Shown here: positions 1-11,191 of the stretch, one piece after another | How positions within the stretch are numbered: the stretch's first letter is position 1 | Layout: the number at the start of each line of letters is the position of its first letter | NCBI GenBank assembly: GCA_944389025.1 | Contig: CALXKU010000020.1 | Span: forward strand, 1 to 42,380 | Direction of reading: 5' to 3' | Origin: an uncultured Spirochaetaceae bacterium | GTDB taxonomy: Bacteria; Spirochaetota; Spirochaetia; Sphaerochaetales; Sphaerochaetaceae | Length of the DNA: 42,380 nucleotides | Notes under the pieces: generated by a model | What the model was told of the DNA's origin: nothing | The model's input: only the letters and a program-made list of their open reading frames with translations | Database searches by the model: none | Position numbers and translations under genes: made by a program

Positions 1-67
1 GCTCGACTTGCATGCTTAAAACGCGCCGCCAGCGTTCGTTCTGAGCCAGGATCAAACTCTCCGTCAT
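1..67 (-). rRNA. rrs: 16S ribosomal RNA, 5' end (partial)
   Basis: Read on the minus strand, this holds the universal 16S 5' sequence: AGAGTTTGATCCTGGCTCAG lies at 60-41, followed by the AACGAACGCTGGCGGC block and AAGCATGCAAGTCGAGC at the edge. The gene runs out of the window to the left. The 5' end at about 67 is set by the usual distance from the AGAGTTTGATC box. The combination AACGAACGCTGGCGGCGCGT fits spirochaetes of the Treponema/Sphaerochaeta kind, but so short a piece cannot place the organism further. Confidence 0.95.
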
Positions 68-3842: not shown

Positions 3843-4110
3843 ACTAAAAAATAAAGCCTTTCAAGTTTCATCCTCGCCTAATGCAAGGACGAAGCTTAAA
3901 AGGCTCCGCGGTTCCACCTTGCTTCCCTTCCCTTATGGAAAGGACGCTCAATTCTCTCTTAACGCAAGATTACGGCAGGATATACTCGTTTCCTTTCCAC
4001 CCTGCAGCTCAGAAGTGGTTTTCGTCACCCTATCCCTAAGTGTCTTCCTTCCAAGGACACTCTCTCAGGAGGGAATCAGGAGCTACTCGTCTTCGTCATA
4101 GCTGTTGGCT
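3843..4110 (-). promoter_or_regulatory. T-box riboswitch, tRNA-Thr responsive
   Basis: The minus strand has the canonical T-box core GGTGGAACCGCG at about 3918-3907, in the antiterminator. Upstream are the Stem I marks: GACGAAGACGAGTA at its base (about 4099-4086), AGAGAG, and GACGAAAACCACTTCTGAGC, in which ACC, a Thr codon followed by A, is the likely specifier. A terminator formed by AGCCTTTTTAAG and CTTGAAAGGCT ends in TTTATTTTTT (about 3905-3843). Uncharged tRNA-Thr should favour the antiterminator and raise thrS expression. The TGGA bulge predicts a tRNA ending UCCA. Confidence 0.9.
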
Positions 4111-4153: not shown

Positions 4154-4900
4154 TCAGGATATCAGAGCTTTGATTTTTCTGACCTTATCCTCTCCAGTAA
4201 TTGAAAGAGAAAACTCATCCTGCCTTAATAAGCCACCCATGAAAACCCTTCCTCCATGATATTCCATTTTTGATTTCACGGCGGAAGAAAGCCCCATATG
4301 GTACTCCTTTGCATGTACGATGCCATGAAGGCGGCTGAAATTCCTCTCGTTAATTCCTGCCCCAGGCATCACAATGATCTTATCCTCAGCCTTCTCAACA
4401 AGACCTTTAAGCGTATATGCCCCCTCAAGAGCCGAAGACTCAAGGCCGCTGGTAAGGACCCTCTCCACGCCAAGAGAAATGAGGTTATCAAGGGAGCGGA
4501 AAGCATCACGCGTCATATCAAACGCCCTATGGAACGTAACGGGAAGGGGACGGGCAATCTCAATAAGTTTTGCAGCCCGTTCCATATCGATTTCCCCATC
4601 TGATGTAAGAATTCCGAATACAAGAGAAGCAGCCCCGGCTTCTTTGAAAAAGCGGGCTTCCCTCATCATCACCTCAAATTCGATATCGCTGTAACAGAAA
4701 TCCCCTCCACGAGGACGGATCATCACATTTATTGGAATTGATGTCTTTTCTTTCGCAAGAAAGAATGTTCCGATTCCTGGAGTAAGCCCTCCCTCGAAAA
4801 GGTCCGAGCATAGCTCAACCCTGTCTGCCCCACCATTTTCTGCCGCTATTACGGACTCAACGGAGGCTGTACATATCTCTATCTTGATTTCTTTACTCAT
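4154..4900 (-). CDS. cutC: CutC family protein
   Basis: A 248-residue TIM-barrel protein, the same length as E. coli CutC. The N-terminus (EICTASVESVIAAENGGADR, then VELC and EGGLTPG) and the IRPRGGDFCYS block are diagnostic. The family was first linked to copper tolerance; its true biochemical role is unsettled. Here it is the last gene of the redox operon, 8 bases after the fRMsr gene. That suggests a part in protecting Fe-S or thiol proteins rather than dedicated copper export, since no copper gene is nearby; this is inference. Its promoter is that of the whole operon. Confidence 0.92.
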   Translation of the reverse strand: MSKEIKIEICTASVESVIAAENGGADRVELCSDLFEGGLTPGIGTFFLAKEKTSIPINVMIRPRGGDFCYSDIEFEVMMREARFFKEAGAASLVFGILTSDGEIDMERAAKLIEIARPLPVTFHRAFDMTRDAFRSLDNLISLGVERVLTSGLESSALEGAYTLKGLVEKAEDKIIVMPGAGINERNFSRLHGIVHAKEYHMGLSSAVKSKMEYHGGRVFMGGLLRQDEFSLSITGEDKVRKIKALIS

Positions 4901-4908
4901 GGGAATGA

Positions 4909-5415
4909 TTATATCATGTAAGAGAAAGACTCAGAAAGCAAAGAAGAAAGGGATGTAAGCATCTTTTTCTCATAATCAGAGAAACGGTTCAAAACAGGGC
5001 TGTCGATATCGATAAGGCCCCAGAAAGTACCATCTTTTCTGATTATAGGAATGACTATCTCGCTTCTGCTCTTTGCAGAACATGCTATATGACCCGGAAA
5101 CAGGGAGACATCAGGAACGATAATACTCTCCATTTTCTCCGCGGCTCTTCCACAGACTCCGCATCCTAGCCTTATTTCGATGCATGCAGGCTCCCCCTGG
5201 AAAGGACCGACAATCAGTTTATCTCCATCAAAGAGATAGAATCCCGCCCAGTTCAAATCGGGGAAATAAGAGAAAATGAAAGCACTTAGATTCGAAAGGG
5301 TCGCAATGAAATGGAAATAATCCTTCTCATTCTCAATATAAGAGGATGCCACCTCCAAAAAAGAAGTGACATCCCTCTCATATATTCCGCTAGCTGTTAA
5401 AGGCGATAGCCTCAT
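4909..5415 (-). CDS. msrC: GAF-domain free methionine-(R)-sulfoxide reductase
   Basis: A 168-residue single-GAF enzyme that reduces free Met-R-sulfoxide, normally using thioredoxin. The family blocks WAGFYLF, GPFQGEPAC, GCGVCG, FPGHIACSA and SEIVIPI are present. Cys78, Cys88 and Cys112 have the same spacing as the three redox-active cysteines of the E. coli enzyme. The ATG overlaps the stop of the hydrogenase gene (ATGA), so translation is probably coupled. Its place behind a hydrogenase and thioredoxin-fold ferredoxins suggests repair of oxidised methionine during oxygen exposure. Confidence 0.92.
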   Translation of the reverse strand: MRLSPLTASGIYERDVTSFLEVASSYIENEKDYFHFIATLSNLSAFIFSYFPDLNWAGFYLFDGDKLIVGPFQGEPACIEIRLGCGVCGRAAEKMESIIVPDVSLFPGHIACSAKSRSEIVIPIIRKDGTFWGLIDIDSPVLNRFSDYEKKMLTSLSSLLSESFSYMI

Positions 5416-6863
5416 GCCTTCTTAGCCGCTGCGGCTTTGTTTGCCTGTCTCAGGCGCAGTGCAACCTGAGGCTTTACTATCGTACCAGGTCCGGCGATAC
5501 ATCCACCCTGACATGTCATGACCTCCACGAGATCGACATCCGGGGCTTTTTTCTGCCATGTGCTCATCAGCCTTACCGTCTTCTTATCGATACCATCGAT
5601 ATTCATTATCTTCACAGAAGATGGATCCTTAAGGCGTGAAAGCACGCATCCTGCCACCCCTCCGGTTACAGCGTATTCCCTGCAATCACCGAACGAGGAA
5701 TCATCTCCGAGACTCTCCTCAGGCATCTCTCTGACATCGATGTCCTTAGCCATGAAGATTGCCGCAAGCTCTGCGAATGTGATGACACCATCGATGATAT
5801 CACGATACTTCTTGTTCGCCTCCACCCTCTTGGAAAGGCATGGCCCGATGAACACCGTCTTGCGCTCCGGATCCTCCTTCTTGCAGATTTCGGCGGAATA
5901 AGCCATCGGTGAATAAGCGTCACTGTACCTTTCTTTGAGGAACGGAAGATGCTTTGGAATAAGCTCCATATAGCTGGAGCAGCATGATGTGGTCATGTAA
6001 CCCTGCTTCGATTCTATCTTCTCGACAAGTTCCTCACCTTCCCTTACGCTCGTGACTTCCGCACCCTTGGCAACCTCAAAGACATCTGTGAACCCAGCAG
6101 CCTTGAGGGCGGATTTTATCTGGCCGAGCGTTCCTGGGAACTGGCCATCAATCGCAGGGGCAATCATGGCGACAACCTTGTCACCACTCTTAAGCATCTT
6201 CAGGACATGAAGCAGCTCACTGCGCTCAACAATCGCTCCGAACGGACATGAGCGTACGCACTTTCCACATCCTATGCACTTCTCGTGTTCAACCTCGACA
6301 AAGCCCTGCTCATTCTTATGGATTGCATTGACCGGACATGCTTCCTCACATGGGACAGGGATATGCACGACAGCATGGAAAGGACAGACCTCCATGCACT
6401 TTCCGCAACGAACGCATCTGTCATCCTGGATGTGAGCCTGTCCGTTGATGAAGACAATGGCATCACGTGGACAGTTGGCCATGCATGGGCGTGCGAAACA
6501 GCCACGGCATGCGTCACTGATCCTGTACTGATCTTTTGGGCAGCCATAACATCCGCTCTTTATGGTCGTAAGAAGAGGAAGGGACGGCTCATCCTTATCC
6601 AGAACCTCTTTCACATATTCTCCAAGAGGCTTGAATTCATCATCGTCGTTATCAAGATCAACACCAAGAAGTGTGAGGATCCTGTAACGGACCATCGCCC
6701 TCTCCTTGTATATGCAGCAGCGTGATGGAATTCTGTCCTTAGGGATGATCTCAATCGGAAGCCTGTCCGCAGTCTGAACAAGAGTATCATTAAAGAAGCG
6801 GCGTACGACTTCTGCATCGATTTTCCTCTTCATTAGCGTAAACTGGTTGTTCAGTTCAATCAT
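5412..6863 (-). CDS. [FeFe] hydrogenase, probably group B, with ferredoxin-like clusters
   Basis: A 483-residue cytoplasmic hydrogenase. A helical N-terminus contains RCCIYKERAMVRYR (about 48-61), which I associate with group-B enzymes. A Cys-rich region follows (105-206), including CVRCGKCMEVCP and CIGCGKCVRSCP for [4Fe-4S] clusters. The H-cluster domain has L1 TSCCSSY (Cys294, Cys295), L2 GPCLSK (Cys342) and L3 TCQGGCIAGPG (Cys451, Cys455). Both L1 cysteines, including the proton-relay one, are kept, so it should be catalytic, but the usual Pro after them is Ser. It overlaps the upstream ferredoxin gene by ATGA. No NADH-binding HydB or maturase genes lie in the window, so the electron partner is probably a ferredoxin. 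The group assignment needs a tree. Confidence 0.88.
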   Translation of the reverse strand: MIELNNQFTLMKRKIDAEVVRRFFNDTLVQTADRLPIEIIPKDRIPSRCCIYKERAMVRYRILTLLGVDLDNDDDEFKPLGEYVKEVLDKDEPSLPLLTTIKSGCYGCPKDQYRISDACRGCFARPCMANCPRDAIVFINGQAHIQDDRCVRCGKCMEVCPFHAVVHIPVPCEEACPVNAIHKNEQGFVEVEHEKCIGCGKCVRSCPFGAIVERSELLHVLKMLKSGDKVVAMIAPAIDGQFPGTLGQIKSALKAAGFTDVFEVAKGAEVTSVREGEELVEKIESKQGYMTTSCCSSYMELIPKHLPFLKERYSDAYSPMAYSAEICKKEDPERKTVFIGPCLSKRVEANKKYRDIIDGVITFAELAAIFMAKDIDVREMPEESLGDDSSFGDCREYAVTGGVAGCVLSRLKDPSSVKIMNIDGIDKKTVRLMSTWQKKAPDVDLVEVMTCQGGCIAGPGTIVKPQVALRLRQANKAAAAKKA

Positions 6864-7123
6864 TCCTTAACAGCCTCCTTGAGAAGTTTGCAGAACACAT
6901 CCTGCGTAACACCATCATAAATCTTGCCATTGATCTCTACGAAAGGAGCCTGACCTCCTCCGACCTTGCACTGCTCAAGGCATGAGCAACCCTCGATCTC
7001 GCAATCAGCAAGAACTTCCGGCTCCAGGAAATCGTTGTAAAGGAGCAGATCGGCTCCTCCCTGGACAAAACAAGCGGTGCCAAGACAGATTCTGACTTTT
7101 ACCTTTGGCTTCTTCATAAACAC
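6860..7123 (-). CDS. Thioredoxin-like [2Fe-2S] ferredoxin
   Basis: An 87-residue protein of the thioredoxin-fold ferredoxin family, also found as the C-terminal half of NuoE and as HydC-like subunits. Four cluster ligands are visible in the family pattern: two in CLGTACFVQGG and two in the GCSCLEQC segment (one extra Cys is present there). The ending VEINGKIYDGVTQD is typical. It overlaps the hydrogenase by 4 bases and lies 7 bases after the phosphatase gene. It most likely carries electrons to or from the hydrogenase encoded next to it. Its sister copy is the first gene of the operon. Confidence 0.9.
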   Translation of the reverse strand: MFMKKPKVKVRICLGTACFVQGGADLLLYNDFLEPEVLADCEIEGCSCLEQCKVGGGQAPFVEINGKIYDGVTQDVFCKLLKEAVKE

Positions 7124-7130
7124 TATCCTC

Positions 7131-8327
7131 CTACAGGTATTCTACTGAAGTTTCTTTTATGTAATTTTCCTCAAGAGCTTTTCTCAGACGTGCGATTATG
7201 GTTCGCCTGATACCGATCTCGAAAGGAATATTCGGATCCTGATGCGCTTCGTTGATCTTCGTTCCAACTATGATATGTATCTGATCGGAATCCAGAAGAA
7301 TCTCAACGAACTTCTTTGCGGGATCATTCGGCATGTCCGCAATATTCTCCTTCTTCTCAAGCGCGGTAACTACTTTGCTAAGGGTAAGCATACCCTCCGT
7401 CACAAGATCTATGCCTTCCATTTTGGATGCGGGAGGAACATCCGGGGACCAGCACGAGAGATCCACCTTGAGCTTTTTGCCGAAAAGACGAGCTACGATC
7501 TGAGCCGTCGTTCCACCGGAGACAATCTTCTTTCCATTGAAGTTCCTGATTTTCTCACCAAGAATCTCGTCCGCCTCCTTCGTAAACGGTGGTCCCGTGA
7601 CAATAAGCGTCCTCCTCGGCCTTCTTATATACACGACAACGCAAGTAATATCATCTTTGGATGAGAATCCATCGAGTGCACATGCCTTCTGCACTATCGC
7701 CCTACTGAGCTCACGGGATGAGATGTCAGGATTGGCAGAAATCTCCTCCTTAATAAATTTTCTCACCCCGTCAAGGCGCCATCCAAGGGGAAGACTCTTA
7801 CCAAGCCCCGACTGGGTAACACCATCTGAGAACATCACAAGGCGCTCTCCGATATCCATCTTGAAAGAAGACTGTGCGATCGTCTCCTTCTTGAACGCCC
7901 CTTCCCTCTTAAGCTCGGTCCTCGTCCTGTCCCATTTGATATCCTCCGCACCCGAAAAACGCAGCGATGCCGGGTTATCGTACTCGATGAGGTTCACGGC
8001 GATATTCTCCATGTCATCGTTGTAGTGTATATCGGCGATGGTGAATGTGGAGTAGCTGATCTTCCTCTCCTTACAGACAGGAAGGGTATCCATTATGATC
8101 TCAGCCGAGTGCTCAAGGGAAATCGGCGAGAATGACAGCTTATGAGCCATATGGGCAGTAAGGGATGCAAGAACGTTCGCCTTTACCCCGCTACCAAGAC
8201 CATCGGAGAGCGTTGCAACGATCTGATTGTTCTCAGGATTCCTGGAAAGGAGGAAGACATCTCCTCCGATCTTCTGTCCATGCTTATATATCTGCGCATA
8301 ATCCACGTCGATGAAGATGTTATTCAT
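7131..8327 (-). CDS. SpoIIE-type PP2C serine/threonine phosphatase with C-terminal extension
   Basis: A 398-residue protein. Residues 1-235 are a PP2C/SpoIIE phosphatase domain: the metal-binding motifs GGD (22-24), LSDGLGSG (about 41-48), FSDGVTQ and SKDDITCVVV are all present. About 160 further residues (from RRPRRTLIVTGPPF) form a second domain that I cannot name; it has a GGTTAQI motif and no membrane segment. The start overlaps the HydS gene by ATGA, a strong sign of a working pair. In other bacteria sensory [FeFe] hydrogenases are often encoded beside phosphatases or kinases, so this protein is probably the output of HydS. Its phosphoprotein target is not visible here. Confidence 0.9.
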   Translation of the reverse strand: MNNIFIDVDYAQIYKHGQKIGGDVFLLSRNPENNQIVATLSDGLGSGVKANVLASLTAHMAHKLSFSPISLEHSAEIIMDTLPVCKERKISYSTFTIADIHYNDDMENIAVNLIEYDNPASLRFSGAEDIKWDRTRTELKREGAFKKETIAQSSFKMDIGERLVMFSDGVTQSGLGKSLPLGWRLDGVRKFIKEEISANPDISSRELSRAIVQKACALDGFSSKDDITCVVVYIRRPRRTLIVTGPPFTKEADEILGEKIRNFNGKKIVSGGTTAQIVARLFGKKLKVDLSCWSPDVPPASKMEGIDLVTEGMLTLSKVVTALEKKENIADMPNDPAKKFVEILLDSDQIHIIVGTKINEAHQDPNIPFEIGIRRTIIARLRKALEENYIKETSVEYL

Positions 8328-10114
8328 GTGATATCCCTGTCATCCTCCATCGTGAAATCCTTGTCATCTCCTGCAGCGGAATGGACGCTGAATGCATCGA
8401 TGAGCGAATTAAGCATGATCTCGGTTTCAGCCGCATTCTCACCGAGCAGGCTTGCAATCTGCTGAACCGTCTCAAGAGATTTCTGTATTACGTCCTCAGC
8501 TTTCTTAACGACAGTCTCCCTCTTGATTGTCGGATTCGTGATATCATCGAACATGGCACCAAGGAGTCTCTTCTTCTCCACGAGGAAGAAGGTCACACGG
8601 ATGAACTTATCCTTGTAGTGCATCCTGTACTGTCCAGGGTGAGAAAGGTAGAACTGGTCCTTGAACTTGTCCGCAAACGGGACGAAACGCTCAACGGGAA
8701 GACCTCGTACGAGGGAGAGCATGCTCTGGTCGACAAAGCCCTCTTCCATGTCTCCGAAAAGATCCAGGAACTGGGTGTTGCAATCAGCTATCTTGAGATC
8801 GCTGTCCACGATTACGACGCCCATTGGAATCGTACGAAGAAGGACATCGACCTTACTCTGGGCCTCTTTCCTCATCTTGGTAACGCACATCTCCACCTCA
8901 GCCATTCCATCGAGGTATGCTATCGCCATACCACGGCATGTGGAATAGCCGCAGCCACCACAGTTAAGCTCGTCAGCTTTCGTAAGCTTTCCAAGCTCAA
9001 CAAGAGCCCTCTTTATATCATCCTCACTATGCTTTTTATGGAAAGAATCCTCTTTTCCTGGCTGACTGCCTCCAAGGATTGCATAGCCCTTCTCAAGCAG
9101 GAGATCGGAAAACTCATCATCCCCTTTGAAGAGATCCTTCTCCTCAAGTCTTCTCTGAACATAATCGCTTGAAGCCTTCTTTCTGAAAGCTATTGAGTAA
9201 TCCCTCTCGGTTCCAGGTCCGTTGACACAACCACCGTCACACCCTAACAGCTCAAGGAACGCAGTTGGCTCATGCTTATCCCCAAGTGCGGATAGAACTT
9301 GGTCCATACCAGAGAGAGCAATCGCTTTGGCATGAATCGGATCATGTCCCCAGATCTCACTTGATGTTATCTGTCCTCCCTCGATCGGATATAGGCTTGA
9401 AACTCCCGCTTTAGCCGGAATGAATTCAACCTGCTCCTTAACCTCGAGGGTATCAAGATCGATTCCCTCACTTGAGAGCCAGTTCTTGAGCTCTACGAAA
9501 GTAAGTGCATAATCAGGATAGCCTGGATACATATCTGCCTCATGCTTCTTTGCGGCACATGGTCCGATGAACACGATTATGATATCTTCTCCGTAAAGCT
9601 TTCTCAAATACGCACTGTGGCACTCGAGCGGAGATGGAATCGGAGAGAGCCGGTATAGACTATCAGGATAGTATTTCTTAACGAGCTCGACCACGGACGG
9701 GCAGGCAGTTCCAATCCAGTTACACTCCCCTCCATTGCGCCTGATATGCTTATCGATTGCTTCTGTCACCAGATGAGCTCCGATAGCGGTCTCACTGACA
9801 TCGGAAAAGCCAAGGAGCTTAAGAGCGTAAAGCAGCTTTTCCTCCTGAAACCTGAACTCCGATGAATAGGATGGAGCAAGGGAGCAGATTGCCCTCTTGC
9901 CACTTGAGAGCGCAAGCTTGACGCGTGAAACATCATCCCTTATCTTCTTCGCATTATTCGGACAGACATGAACGCACTTACCACAGAAAATGCATCTGTC
10001 CTTGATTATCATGGCATGGCCATCCTTGATCTGAATCGATTTCGTGGGACAGACTCTGACGCATTTGTAACAGTCCCTGCAGCTTGTAATCTCAGTATAA
10101 ATCGGATACTGCAT
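8324..10114 (-). CDS. hydS: Sensory [FeFe] hydrogenase HydS with Fes and PAS domains (group C)
   Basis: A 596-residue modular sensor. Two [4Fe-4S] motifs (Cys12-22 and Cys41-51) precede a hydrogenase domain of about 70-310 with L1 GTACPS (Cys138), L2 GPCAAKKHE (Cys186) and L3 GCDGGCVNGPG (Cys292, Cys296). Ala137 stands where catalytic hydrogenases have the proton-relay Cys; the same change is known in sensory HydS and goes with low activity. A Fes-type motif follows (Cys385, 388, 393 and 410), then a PAS domain (about 422-530) and a helical tail. It has no kinase domain, so the signal must pass to a partner, most likely the phosphatase encoded by the overlapping next gene. The H-cluster presumably senses H2 or redox state. 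Confidence 0.92.
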   Translation of the reverse strand: MQYPIYTEITSCRDCYKCVRVCPTKSIQIKDGHAMIIKDRCIFCGKCVHVCPNNAKKIRDDVSRVKLALSSGKRAICSLAPSYSSEFRFQEEKLLYALKLLGFSDVSETAIGAHLVTEAIDKHIRRNGGECNWIGTACPSVVELVKKYYPDSLYRLSPIPSPLECHSAYLRKLYGEDIIIVFIGPCAAKKHEADMYPGYPDYALTFVELKNWLSSEGIDLDTLEVKEQVEFIPAKAGVSSLYPIEGGQITSSEIWGHDPIHAKAIALSGMDQVLSALGDKHEPTAFLELLGCDGGCVNGPGTERDYSIAFRKKASSDYVQRRLEEKDLFKGDDEFSDLLLEKGYAILGGSQPGKEDSFHKKHSEDDIKRALVELGKLTKADELNCGGCGYSTCRGMAIAYLDGMAEVEMCVTKMRKEAQSKVDVLLRTIPMGVVIVDSDLKIADCNTQFLDLFGDMEEGFVDQSMLSLVRGLPVERFVPFADKFKDQFYLSHPGQYRMHYKDKFIRVTFFLVEKKRLLGAMFDDITNPTIKRETVVKKAEDVIQKSLETVQQIASLLGENAAETEIMLNSLIDAFSVHSAAGDDKDFTMEDDRDIT

Positions 10115-10116
10115 CT

Positions 10117-10365
10117 CTATTCTAGCTCCTTTTTCAACAGGTCGATAACATTATCCTCATCGAGCTCAGAGTACTCCTTTCCGTTTATCGCAACGTGAGG
10201 CCCCGTATTGCATCTGCCAAGACATAAATGACCTTCAAGCTCCACACGGTCCTCAAGATTATTCTCATTTATGAAATTCTCAATAGCAGACAGGACGCTG
10301 CTATTTCCTCTGGCAAAACAGCTAGAGCCCATGCAGAGCTCAACCTTGACAATATTATCAGCCAT
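10117..10365 (-). CDS. Thioredoxin-like [2Fe-2S] ferredoxin
   Basis: An 82-residue thioredoxin-fold ferredoxin and first gene of the redox operon. Ligands lie in CMGSSCFARGN and CLGRC, with the typical AINGKEYSEL ending. It is related to the 87-residue copy further down the operon, so one probably serves HydS and the other the catalytic hydrogenase. The start has a GAGGGAG ribosome site 7-13 bases upstream. Only 2 bases separate it from hydS. Confidence 0.9.
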   Translation of the reverse strand: MADNIVKVELCMGSSCFARGNSSVLSAIENFINENNLEDRVELEGHLCLGRCNTGPHVAINGKEYSELDEDNVIDLLKKELE

Positions 10366-10390: not shown

Positions 10391-10419
10391 AGGGTAATTC
10401 AAGAAAGGAAAATAGTCAA
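10391..10419 (-). promoter_or_regulatory. Promoter of the hydrogenase-sensor operon
   Basis: Minus-strand TTGACT (10419-10414), 17 bases, TACCCT (10396-10391). Transcription would begin near 10384, leaving a leader of about 20 bases. No clear Rex palindrome (TTGT...ACAA) overlaps it; only a half-site-like TTGTAAG lies just upstream. Confidence 0.55.
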
Positions 10420-10440: not shown

Positions 10441-10498
10441 ATTAACTCCCATTTTACAGCTTATCGAGCAGATGAAAACCATAAAACGGGAGTTTAAT
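10441..10498. repeat. Long inverted repeat between rex and the hydrogenase operon
   Basis: ATTAACTCCCATTTTA (10441-10456) and TAAAACGGGAGTTTAAT (10482-10498) are near-perfect inverted arms around 25 bases. A second, perfect palindrome, GATATAGTC-ATCT-GACTATATC (10512-10533), overlaps the rex stop. Either may end the ispH-rex transcript, though neither is followed by a strong T run on the minus strand; the larger one could also be an operator upstream of the hydrogenase promoter. Confidence 0.6.
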
Positions 10499-10531: not shown

Positions 10532-11191
10532 TCAAATCATATCCTCATCGGAATCTAAATCATCGCTTTCCGCCAATTTCTTGCTCAGCTTTACAGAAAG
10601 AACTGCAAAACTGGTTGCAAGATCGGTCCTCTGAACAACGACGCTTTCAGGAACTTTCAGATCTTTGGGGGCGAAATTCCATATACCCCGTATACCGCAT
10701 TTCACAAGCAGATCACATACGGCCTGAGCCTGTATAGCGGGAACCGTTATTACGGCGATGCTTATCCTGTTCTCCATGATGAAACGGTTAAGACTCTCCA
10801 TGCTCTTTACGGTGAAACTTCCGACACTCGTGCCTATCTTCTCTGTGGATTTGTCGAATATGGCGACTATCTTAAGCCCATAAGAGGCAAAGCCATCATA
10901 GCGAGCAATAGCACTGCCAAGATTTCCAGCCCCTACTATGAGGGCATCGGTCGTATTATCCCAGCCAAGGACATGGGTGATATAGTGAATGAGCTCCTCT
11001 ATGTCGAAACCGATTTTCGGCTTACCCTCGATTCCGGTAGACGAGATATCCTTTCTTACCTGTATCGGGTTAAGCCCCAGCTCCTCCGCCAGGTTCGTTG
11101 CACTGATATATTTCTTTCCCGCGTCCTTTGCCTGATTAAGAATCCTCAGATAGGATGGGAATCTCTTTATCGTTGGTATTGGGATGCTCAT
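10532..11191 (-). CDS. rex: Redox-sensing transcriptional repressor Rex
   Basis: A 219-residue repressor that senses the NADH/NAD+ ratio. The N-terminal winged helix (IPTIKRFPSYLRIL ... NPIQVRKDISS) and the Rossmann motif GAGNLGSA (about 87-94) are diagnostic, and NFAPKDLKVP follows near the C-terminus. It overlaps the ispH stop by ATGA and lies just upstream of the hydrogenase operon in the same direction. Rex commonly represses fermentation and hydrogenase genes, so control of that operon is likely, although no textbook Rex operator is seen in the gap. Confidence 0.96.
   Translation of the reverse strand: MSIPIPTIKRFPSYLRILNQAKDAGKKYISATNLAEELGLNPIQVRKDISSTGIEGKPKIGFDIEELIHYITHVLGWDNTTDALIVGAGNLGSAIARYDGFASYGLKIVAIFDKSTEKIGTSVGSFTVKSMESLNRFIMENRISIAVITVPAIQAQAVCDLLVKCGIRGIWNFAPKDLKVPESVVVQRTDLATSFAVLSVKLSKKLAESDDLDSDEDMI

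Follow-up and report, generated by a model that had tools for sequence, protein, structure and literature searches.

What might a putative sensory hydrogenase without an output domain control, and through which partner? The question is raised by seven close-set genes on the minus strand (10365-4154) of contig CALXKU010000020.1 from an uncultured Spirochaetaceae bacterium of the gut; positions 1-42,380 of this contig are the stretch of DNA analysed here (the window). In the list of open reading frames (ORFs) they appear in the order trx1, HydS, a PP2C phosphatase, trx2, a group B hydrogenase (HydB), fRMsr and CutC, each where a sequence-only reading of the window had placed it. Gene families were assigned by Pfam and NCBIfam profiles. 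The host assembly (2.31 Mb, 39 contigs, completeness 97.6%) has Candidatus Ornithospirochaeta as its closest named relative, followed more distantly by Sphaerochaeta. Judging from sequence, the locus is quite probably an hfsABCD-type operon built around a sensory [FeFe] hydrogenase of the phosphatase-linked group C3 and tuning H2 output. As such it is not new in kind, but a widespread form of a known, though poorly understood, hydrogen-sensing system. New here is, among other things, the near-constant adjacency of HydS and phosphatase genes across many phyla, with a group B hydrogenase coming next in about half of the cases.

The two hydrogenases of the locus differ precisely where proton transfer is concerned. 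HydS consists of a 2[4Fe-4S] ferredoxin domain, an H-domain (residues 74-300), an FeS domain (383-411, PF04060), a PAS domain (425-526, PF13188, 24.0 bits against a cut-off of 21.8) and a C-terminal helix (535-575); domain profiles found no output domain, and this architecture agrees with the earlier description. When HydS is aligned to CpI, E279 is replaced by I, E282 by H and C299 by A, R286 falls in a gap and S319 is kept. The alanine at C299 is the Ala137 previously assigned to the proton-relay site. It does not serve as a marker of HydS, because distant HydS proteins of the family carry Ser or Cys at this position. In the same alignment HydB keeps E279, E282, S319 and C299, and both proteins have Gly where CpI has M353. 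The H-cluster cysteines are all kept in HydB, and those of HydS (C138, C186, C292 and C296) are invariant. HydS thus combines H-cluster cysteines, C-terminal FeS and PAS domains, the loss of most relay residues and a phosphatase gene alongside, which are the traits of group C3.

The neighbouring enzyme had been described as a catalytic hydrogenase. It is indeed a hydrogenase with its relay residues in place, but it belongs to group B (TIGR04105) and not to the prototypical group A. Among eight hydrogenases from other loci, seven scored above the TIGR04105 cut-off, the eighth being the group A enzyme of locus L141. A tree built from a trimmed alignment and rooted with group A (FastTree local supports) recovered HydS (79 sequences, support 0.857) and group B (41 sequences, 0.891) as monophyletic, both apart from group A. 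A grouping of HydS with catalytic enzymes, which the sequence-only reading had named as the outcome that would speak against it, is therefore not what the tree gives. A third [FeFe] protein of the host genome lies on another contig, in a HydABC-type NuoE/NuoF/HydA set (L180 1902-6756, contig C3), and its HydA is a group A6 enzyme (NF040763, 810 bits).

The HydS and phosphatase genes share the 4-bp ATGA overlap reported before. The metal-site residues of the phosphatase (D23, D42-G43, D168-G169 and D225-D226) are invariant in 65 sequences from many phyla, and its catalytic domain is of the SpoIIE type by sequence and fold, with SpoIIE and RsbU as the nearest structures. It is followed by an alpha/beta domain of about 160 residues (236-398) that AlphaFold2 (AF2) models confidently (pLDDT 90), and whose conservation is 0.60 against 0.55 for the catalytic domain. 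No Pfam family matched this domain in the window protein at E=5, with two chance-level matches among 13 homologues, and a Foldseek search of the PDB returned no match at E<=0.001. VIA-align aligned it with NuoG of complex I (Z 10.6, root-mean-square deviation 3.5 over 120 residues), and then with formylmethanofuran-dehydrogenase-type subunits (Z 8-10). The resemblance to these chains would be at most one of Rossmann-like fold; it points to no function and leaves room for other folds. On the HydS side, the C-terminal helix (VQQIASLLGENAAETE) has a mean conservation across phyla of 0.67, versus 0.49 for the PAS domain and 0.14 for the tail that follows, which makes it a likely docking element.

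The arrangement is by no means a peculiarity of this genome. The phosphatase was found in 96 of the 139 genomes of the family, and the order trx1-hydS-pp2c-trx2-hydB is the rule in 60 family neighbourhoods, mostly after rex and before thrS, with the 4-bp hydS/pp2c overlap in 47 of them. When 84,980 species genomes were scanned more widely with the phosphatase as seed, the best 80 loci among the matches listed were, by their titles, from Spirochaetota, Bacteroidota, Planctomycetota, Verrucomicrobia, Acidobacteriota, Cloacimonadota, Riflebacteria, Nitrospirae, Clostridiales, gut 'Alphaproteobacteria' and others. In 69 of the 73 named loci with a called phosphatase ORF hydS adjoins pp2c; a group B-type hydrogenase lies directly downstream (<=700 bp) in 39, about half, a group A (HydABC-type) enzyme is nearby in 14, and neither is present in 19. 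The HydS-PP2C pairs of Mogibacterium/Clostridiales metagenome-assembled genomes (MAGs) (L104, L105, L107, L108, L115, L155) are 51-59% identical to those of the window, more than many spirochaete homologues, and horizontal transfer is possible. Also, Marinifilum and a Riflebacteria genome have two hydS-pp2c pairs per neighbourhood (L149, L152, L153, L163, L137), possibly duplicated sensors.

Table 1. Features of the locus and its upstream flank, in window coordinates.
Feature	Position	Strand	Evidence
trx1, thioredoxin-fold [2Fe-2S] ferredoxin	10117..10365	-	PF01257 (2Fe-2S_thioredx); Cys 11/16/48/52 invariant, n=56
HydS	8324..10114	-	Fe_hyd_lg_C + FeS + PAS
PP2C/SpoIIE phosphatase	7131..8327	-	PF07228; metal site invariant, n=65; AF2 models
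trx2, second thioredoxin-fold [2Fe-2S] ferredoxin	6860..7123	-	PF01257, 27.7 bits (cut-off 24.8)
Group B monomeric [FeFe] hydrogenase (HydB)	5412..6863	-	TIGR04105, 510.2 bits (cut-off 450); proton-relay residues and H-cluster Cys
fRMsr, free methionine-R-sulfoxide reductase	4909..5415	-	GAF; PDB matches YebR and methionine-R-sulfoxide reductase; Cys 78/88/112
CutC family protein	4154..4900	-	PF03932, 228 bits; PDB CutC homologues
Promoter TTGACT-17-TACCCT	10391..10419	-	Directly before trx1
Conserved motif TTCACATTAA	10494..10503	-	Role unassigned
Terminator-like hairpin after rex	10444..10494	-	Folding energy of the stretch -24.2 kcal/mol
rex, NADH-responsive redox repressor, upstream neighbour	10532..11191	-	NCBIfam Rex, 257 bits (cut-off 130)

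Ferredoxins had been placed ahead of HydS and ahead of the hydrogenase, and both proteins match 2Fe-2S_thioredx; each has four cysteines as candidate ligands, those of trx2 (Cys 13/18/48/52) being invariant in the family alignment. The three fRMsr cysteines are all invariant as well, in agreement with its PDB matches. The seven genes are separated by -4 to +8 bp, and TTGAC occurs at -100 to -25 of trx1 in 53 of 55 loci versus 7% of shuffles. Upstream, the hairpin after rex has counterparts in five close relatives (L034-L037, L039), with changes matched on both arms. Because this conserved hairpin follows rex, ispH-rex is probably a transcription unit apart from the trx1 operon. Downstream, thrS opens with its own T-box leader (3882-4108, minus strand; Rfam RF00230, 106.5 bits). 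The conserved promoter, the near-zero gaps, the rex hairpin and the thrS T-box together make a single seven-gene transcript from trx1 through CutC likely, as predicted from sequence features. Of nine relatives tested, three likewise have a T-box leader before threonyl-tRNA synthetase; a 2008 survey had counted none in six spirochaete genomes (PMC2494555). At the edge of the window (1-67, minus strand) lies the 5' end of a 16S rRNA gene.

The rex gene adjoins the cassette in most family loci and also in several other phyla. The best matches to a canonical Rex operator before trx1 reach 0.44-0.79 of the consensus, are scattered and none is conserved, so that direct Rex control is not shown. The motif TTCACATTAA is matched in at least nine of its ten positions by 35 of 56 loci, some 130 to 185 bp before trx1, versus 4% of shuffles; in relatives it occurs in either orientation and at times inside a TGTGA-N6-TCACA-like palindrome. 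As half of such a palindrome (CRP/Rex geometry) it is suggestive in some relatives, but the host genome has no site with <=1 mismatch.

How could such an operon work? HydS would react slowly with H2, or would equilibrate through trx1 with the reduced ferredoxin pool. The change would travel through the C-terminal Fe-S cluster and the PAS domain to the C-terminal helix, which would dock on the phosphatase and switch it. The switched phosphatase would then dephosphorylate Ser/Thr residues of some protein whose gene lies elsewhere, and would so tune the H2 output of the group B hydrogenase and the fermentation balance. We favour a sensory operon of this kind because HydB retains the relay residues and HydS has lost most of them, the H-cluster cysteines being invariant in both, because HydS and group B are separate clades, because the metal site of the phosphatase is invariant, and because adjacency, overlap, promoter and C-terminal helix are conserved; the genetics of the hfs genes adds to this (PMC5707799).

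Indeed, in Thermoanaerobacterium the loss of hfsA or hfsB alters adhE expression and ethanol yield, and a high ethanol yield needs hfsC and hfsD (PMC5707799). The likeness of our locus to hfsABCD was judged from the gene order given in PMC11837493: a sensor with PAS (HfsB), a Ser phosphatase (HfsC) and a ferredoxin-linked hydrogenase (HfsD) follow each other in both, in the window all on one strand. The window differs by its second ferredoxin gene before the hydrogenase, its fRMsr and CutC tail, the adjoining rex and its spirochaete host; its hydrogenase is of group B, whatever the group of HfsD. That HydS-phosphatase neighbourhoods are known, as the sequence-only reading had stated, is borne out by HydDB, where group C3 comprises putative phosphatase-linked [FeFe] hydrogenases with an 'undetermined' role (PMC5037454). 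These share with the window a HydS-type H-domain with PAS and a Ser/Thr phosphatase encoded alongside, but HydDB describes no cassette, whereas the conserved set seen here adds trx1, trx2 and the group B enzyme. In Ruminococcus albus, a group C sensor is likewise encoded with a ferredoxin-only hydrogenase, and co-cultivation with a consumer of hydrogen down-regulates this hydS-hydA2 cluster 111-fold (PMC6776011); there the partner belongs to group A1 and the cluster also contains an alcohol/aldehyde dehydrogenase. Bacteroides has an enzyme of the same group B as the window, with H2 production dependent on ferredoxin, and in the part of PMC12578642 consulted no linkage to HydS and phosphatase is reported. 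TmHydS of Thermotoga maritima, compared by description, is likewise of sensory type and resembles HydS in having an H-domain with PAS and deviating residues near the H-cluster (PMC10055695).

Several points weigh against the sensory operon. The contact between HydS and phosphatase is suggested by gene order and conservation alone, the single transcript is a prediction, and H2 sensing in vivo by a HydS of this kind is still putative. Finally, HydG was not found in the host genome at E<=0.001 in a search with T. maritima as positive control (HydE and HydF were not searched separately), so that an intact H-cluster should not be taken for granted.

These points leave room for other explanations. 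The closeness of the phosphatase to SpoIIE and RsbU structures, together with its invariant D/DG/DG/DD catalytic residues, calls to mind classical partner switching, in which it would dephosphorylate a STAS antagonist, which in turn would release a sigma factor held by an RsbW/SpoIIAB-type kinase. The sequence-only reading had seen no kinase or anti-sigma partner at the locus, and this extends to the whole genome: profile searches for STAS, STAS_2 and Pkinase (Hanks-type kinase) gave no match. Of 48 genomes of the genus, 43 carry the phosphatase but just 3 have STAS and 6 have Pkinase, and the HATPase_c_2 matches are weak and lie in frames of 370-534 aa, the size of histidine kinases. With the genome devoid of such matches and the genus nearly so for STAS, RsbV/SpoIIAA-type switching and a STAS anti-sigma antagonist as target appear unlikely on sequence grounds, and the complete classical scheme seems to us hardly credible. 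The host does encode an HPr kinase, making HPr-Ser-P a possible, if unsupported, candidate substrate. Alternatively, the genes could form one hydrogenase complex in which the phosphatase acts on HydB or the ferredoxins instead of a distant target. The conserved order with two ferredoxins would fit, and the ability of HfsABC to form a hydrogenase has been raised (PMC13277313); yet hydS-pp2c stands without a nearby hydrogenase in the Mogibacterium/Clostridiales MAG loci and others, and adjoins HydABC elsewhere, so that we consider a single complex quite unlikely. The proposal made earlier that sensing, catalysis and oxidative repair are one functional programme draws on the window itself, where fRMsr overlaps HydB and CutC follows after 8 bp, and on the 60 family loci, about 31 of which have fRMsr after the cassette. 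In relatives, though, a distance of 14-300 bp usually separates fRMsr from the cassette, CutC follows only in the nearest relatives (the window, L035/L094, L036 and L095), and in other phyla the cassette includes neither of the two. The programme is thus very unlikely. Compared across relatives, the same gene order holds for the conserved core of five genes and not for the tail, where fRMsr is frequent within the family alone and CutC has been added recently and locally.

The missing HydG supports a different alternative, in which HydS lacks the H-cluster and, in genomes lacking HydEFG, reports ferredoxin potential instead of H2 through its Fe-S clusters; the Trx-fold and 4Fe-4S domains would offer the electron path. 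In the family, HydG exceeds the cut-off in 35 of 139 genomes, and none was found in about 61 carriers of the phosphatase, including near-complete assemblies of 1-2 contigs (G090, G091, G093, G100, G110, G113-G115) and every carrier in genus g2. Against this, not one of 41 HydG-negative sequences deviates at any of the four H-cluster cysteines of HydS and HydB, an argument for continued assembly of the cluster, and all 35 HydG genomes also carry the cassette phosphatase (hypergeometric 2e-7, a figure that overstates the evidence owing to the kinship of the genomes). Weighing both sides, we regard a sensor without H-cluster as unlikely. In nine HydG-positive genomes examined hydG adjoins hydF and/or hydE in varying surroundings. 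A divergent maturase that was overlooked, assembly gaps in single MAGs and genuine absence are all possible. If the absence is real, either an as yet undescribed pathway would build the H-cluster, or the two H-domain proteins would be redox devices without the [2Fe] subcluster, feeding a phosphatase whose output is other than partner switching; taken as a whole, this view seems to us rather unlikely. Rhodospirillum rubrum and some protists are cases reported earlier against a HydEFG requirement (PMC4967309).

With STAS absent, the textbook target falls away, and the question of the substrate becomes directly testable in these spirochaetes; the missing HydG, if true, would challenge the general dependence of [FeFe] hydrogenases on HydEFG. 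More broadly, the conserved cassette ties phosphatase-linked sensors to the group B hydrogenase, the reported main H2 producer of the human gut, and so opens a genetic approach to the way in which gut bacteria may perceive H2 of their own making.

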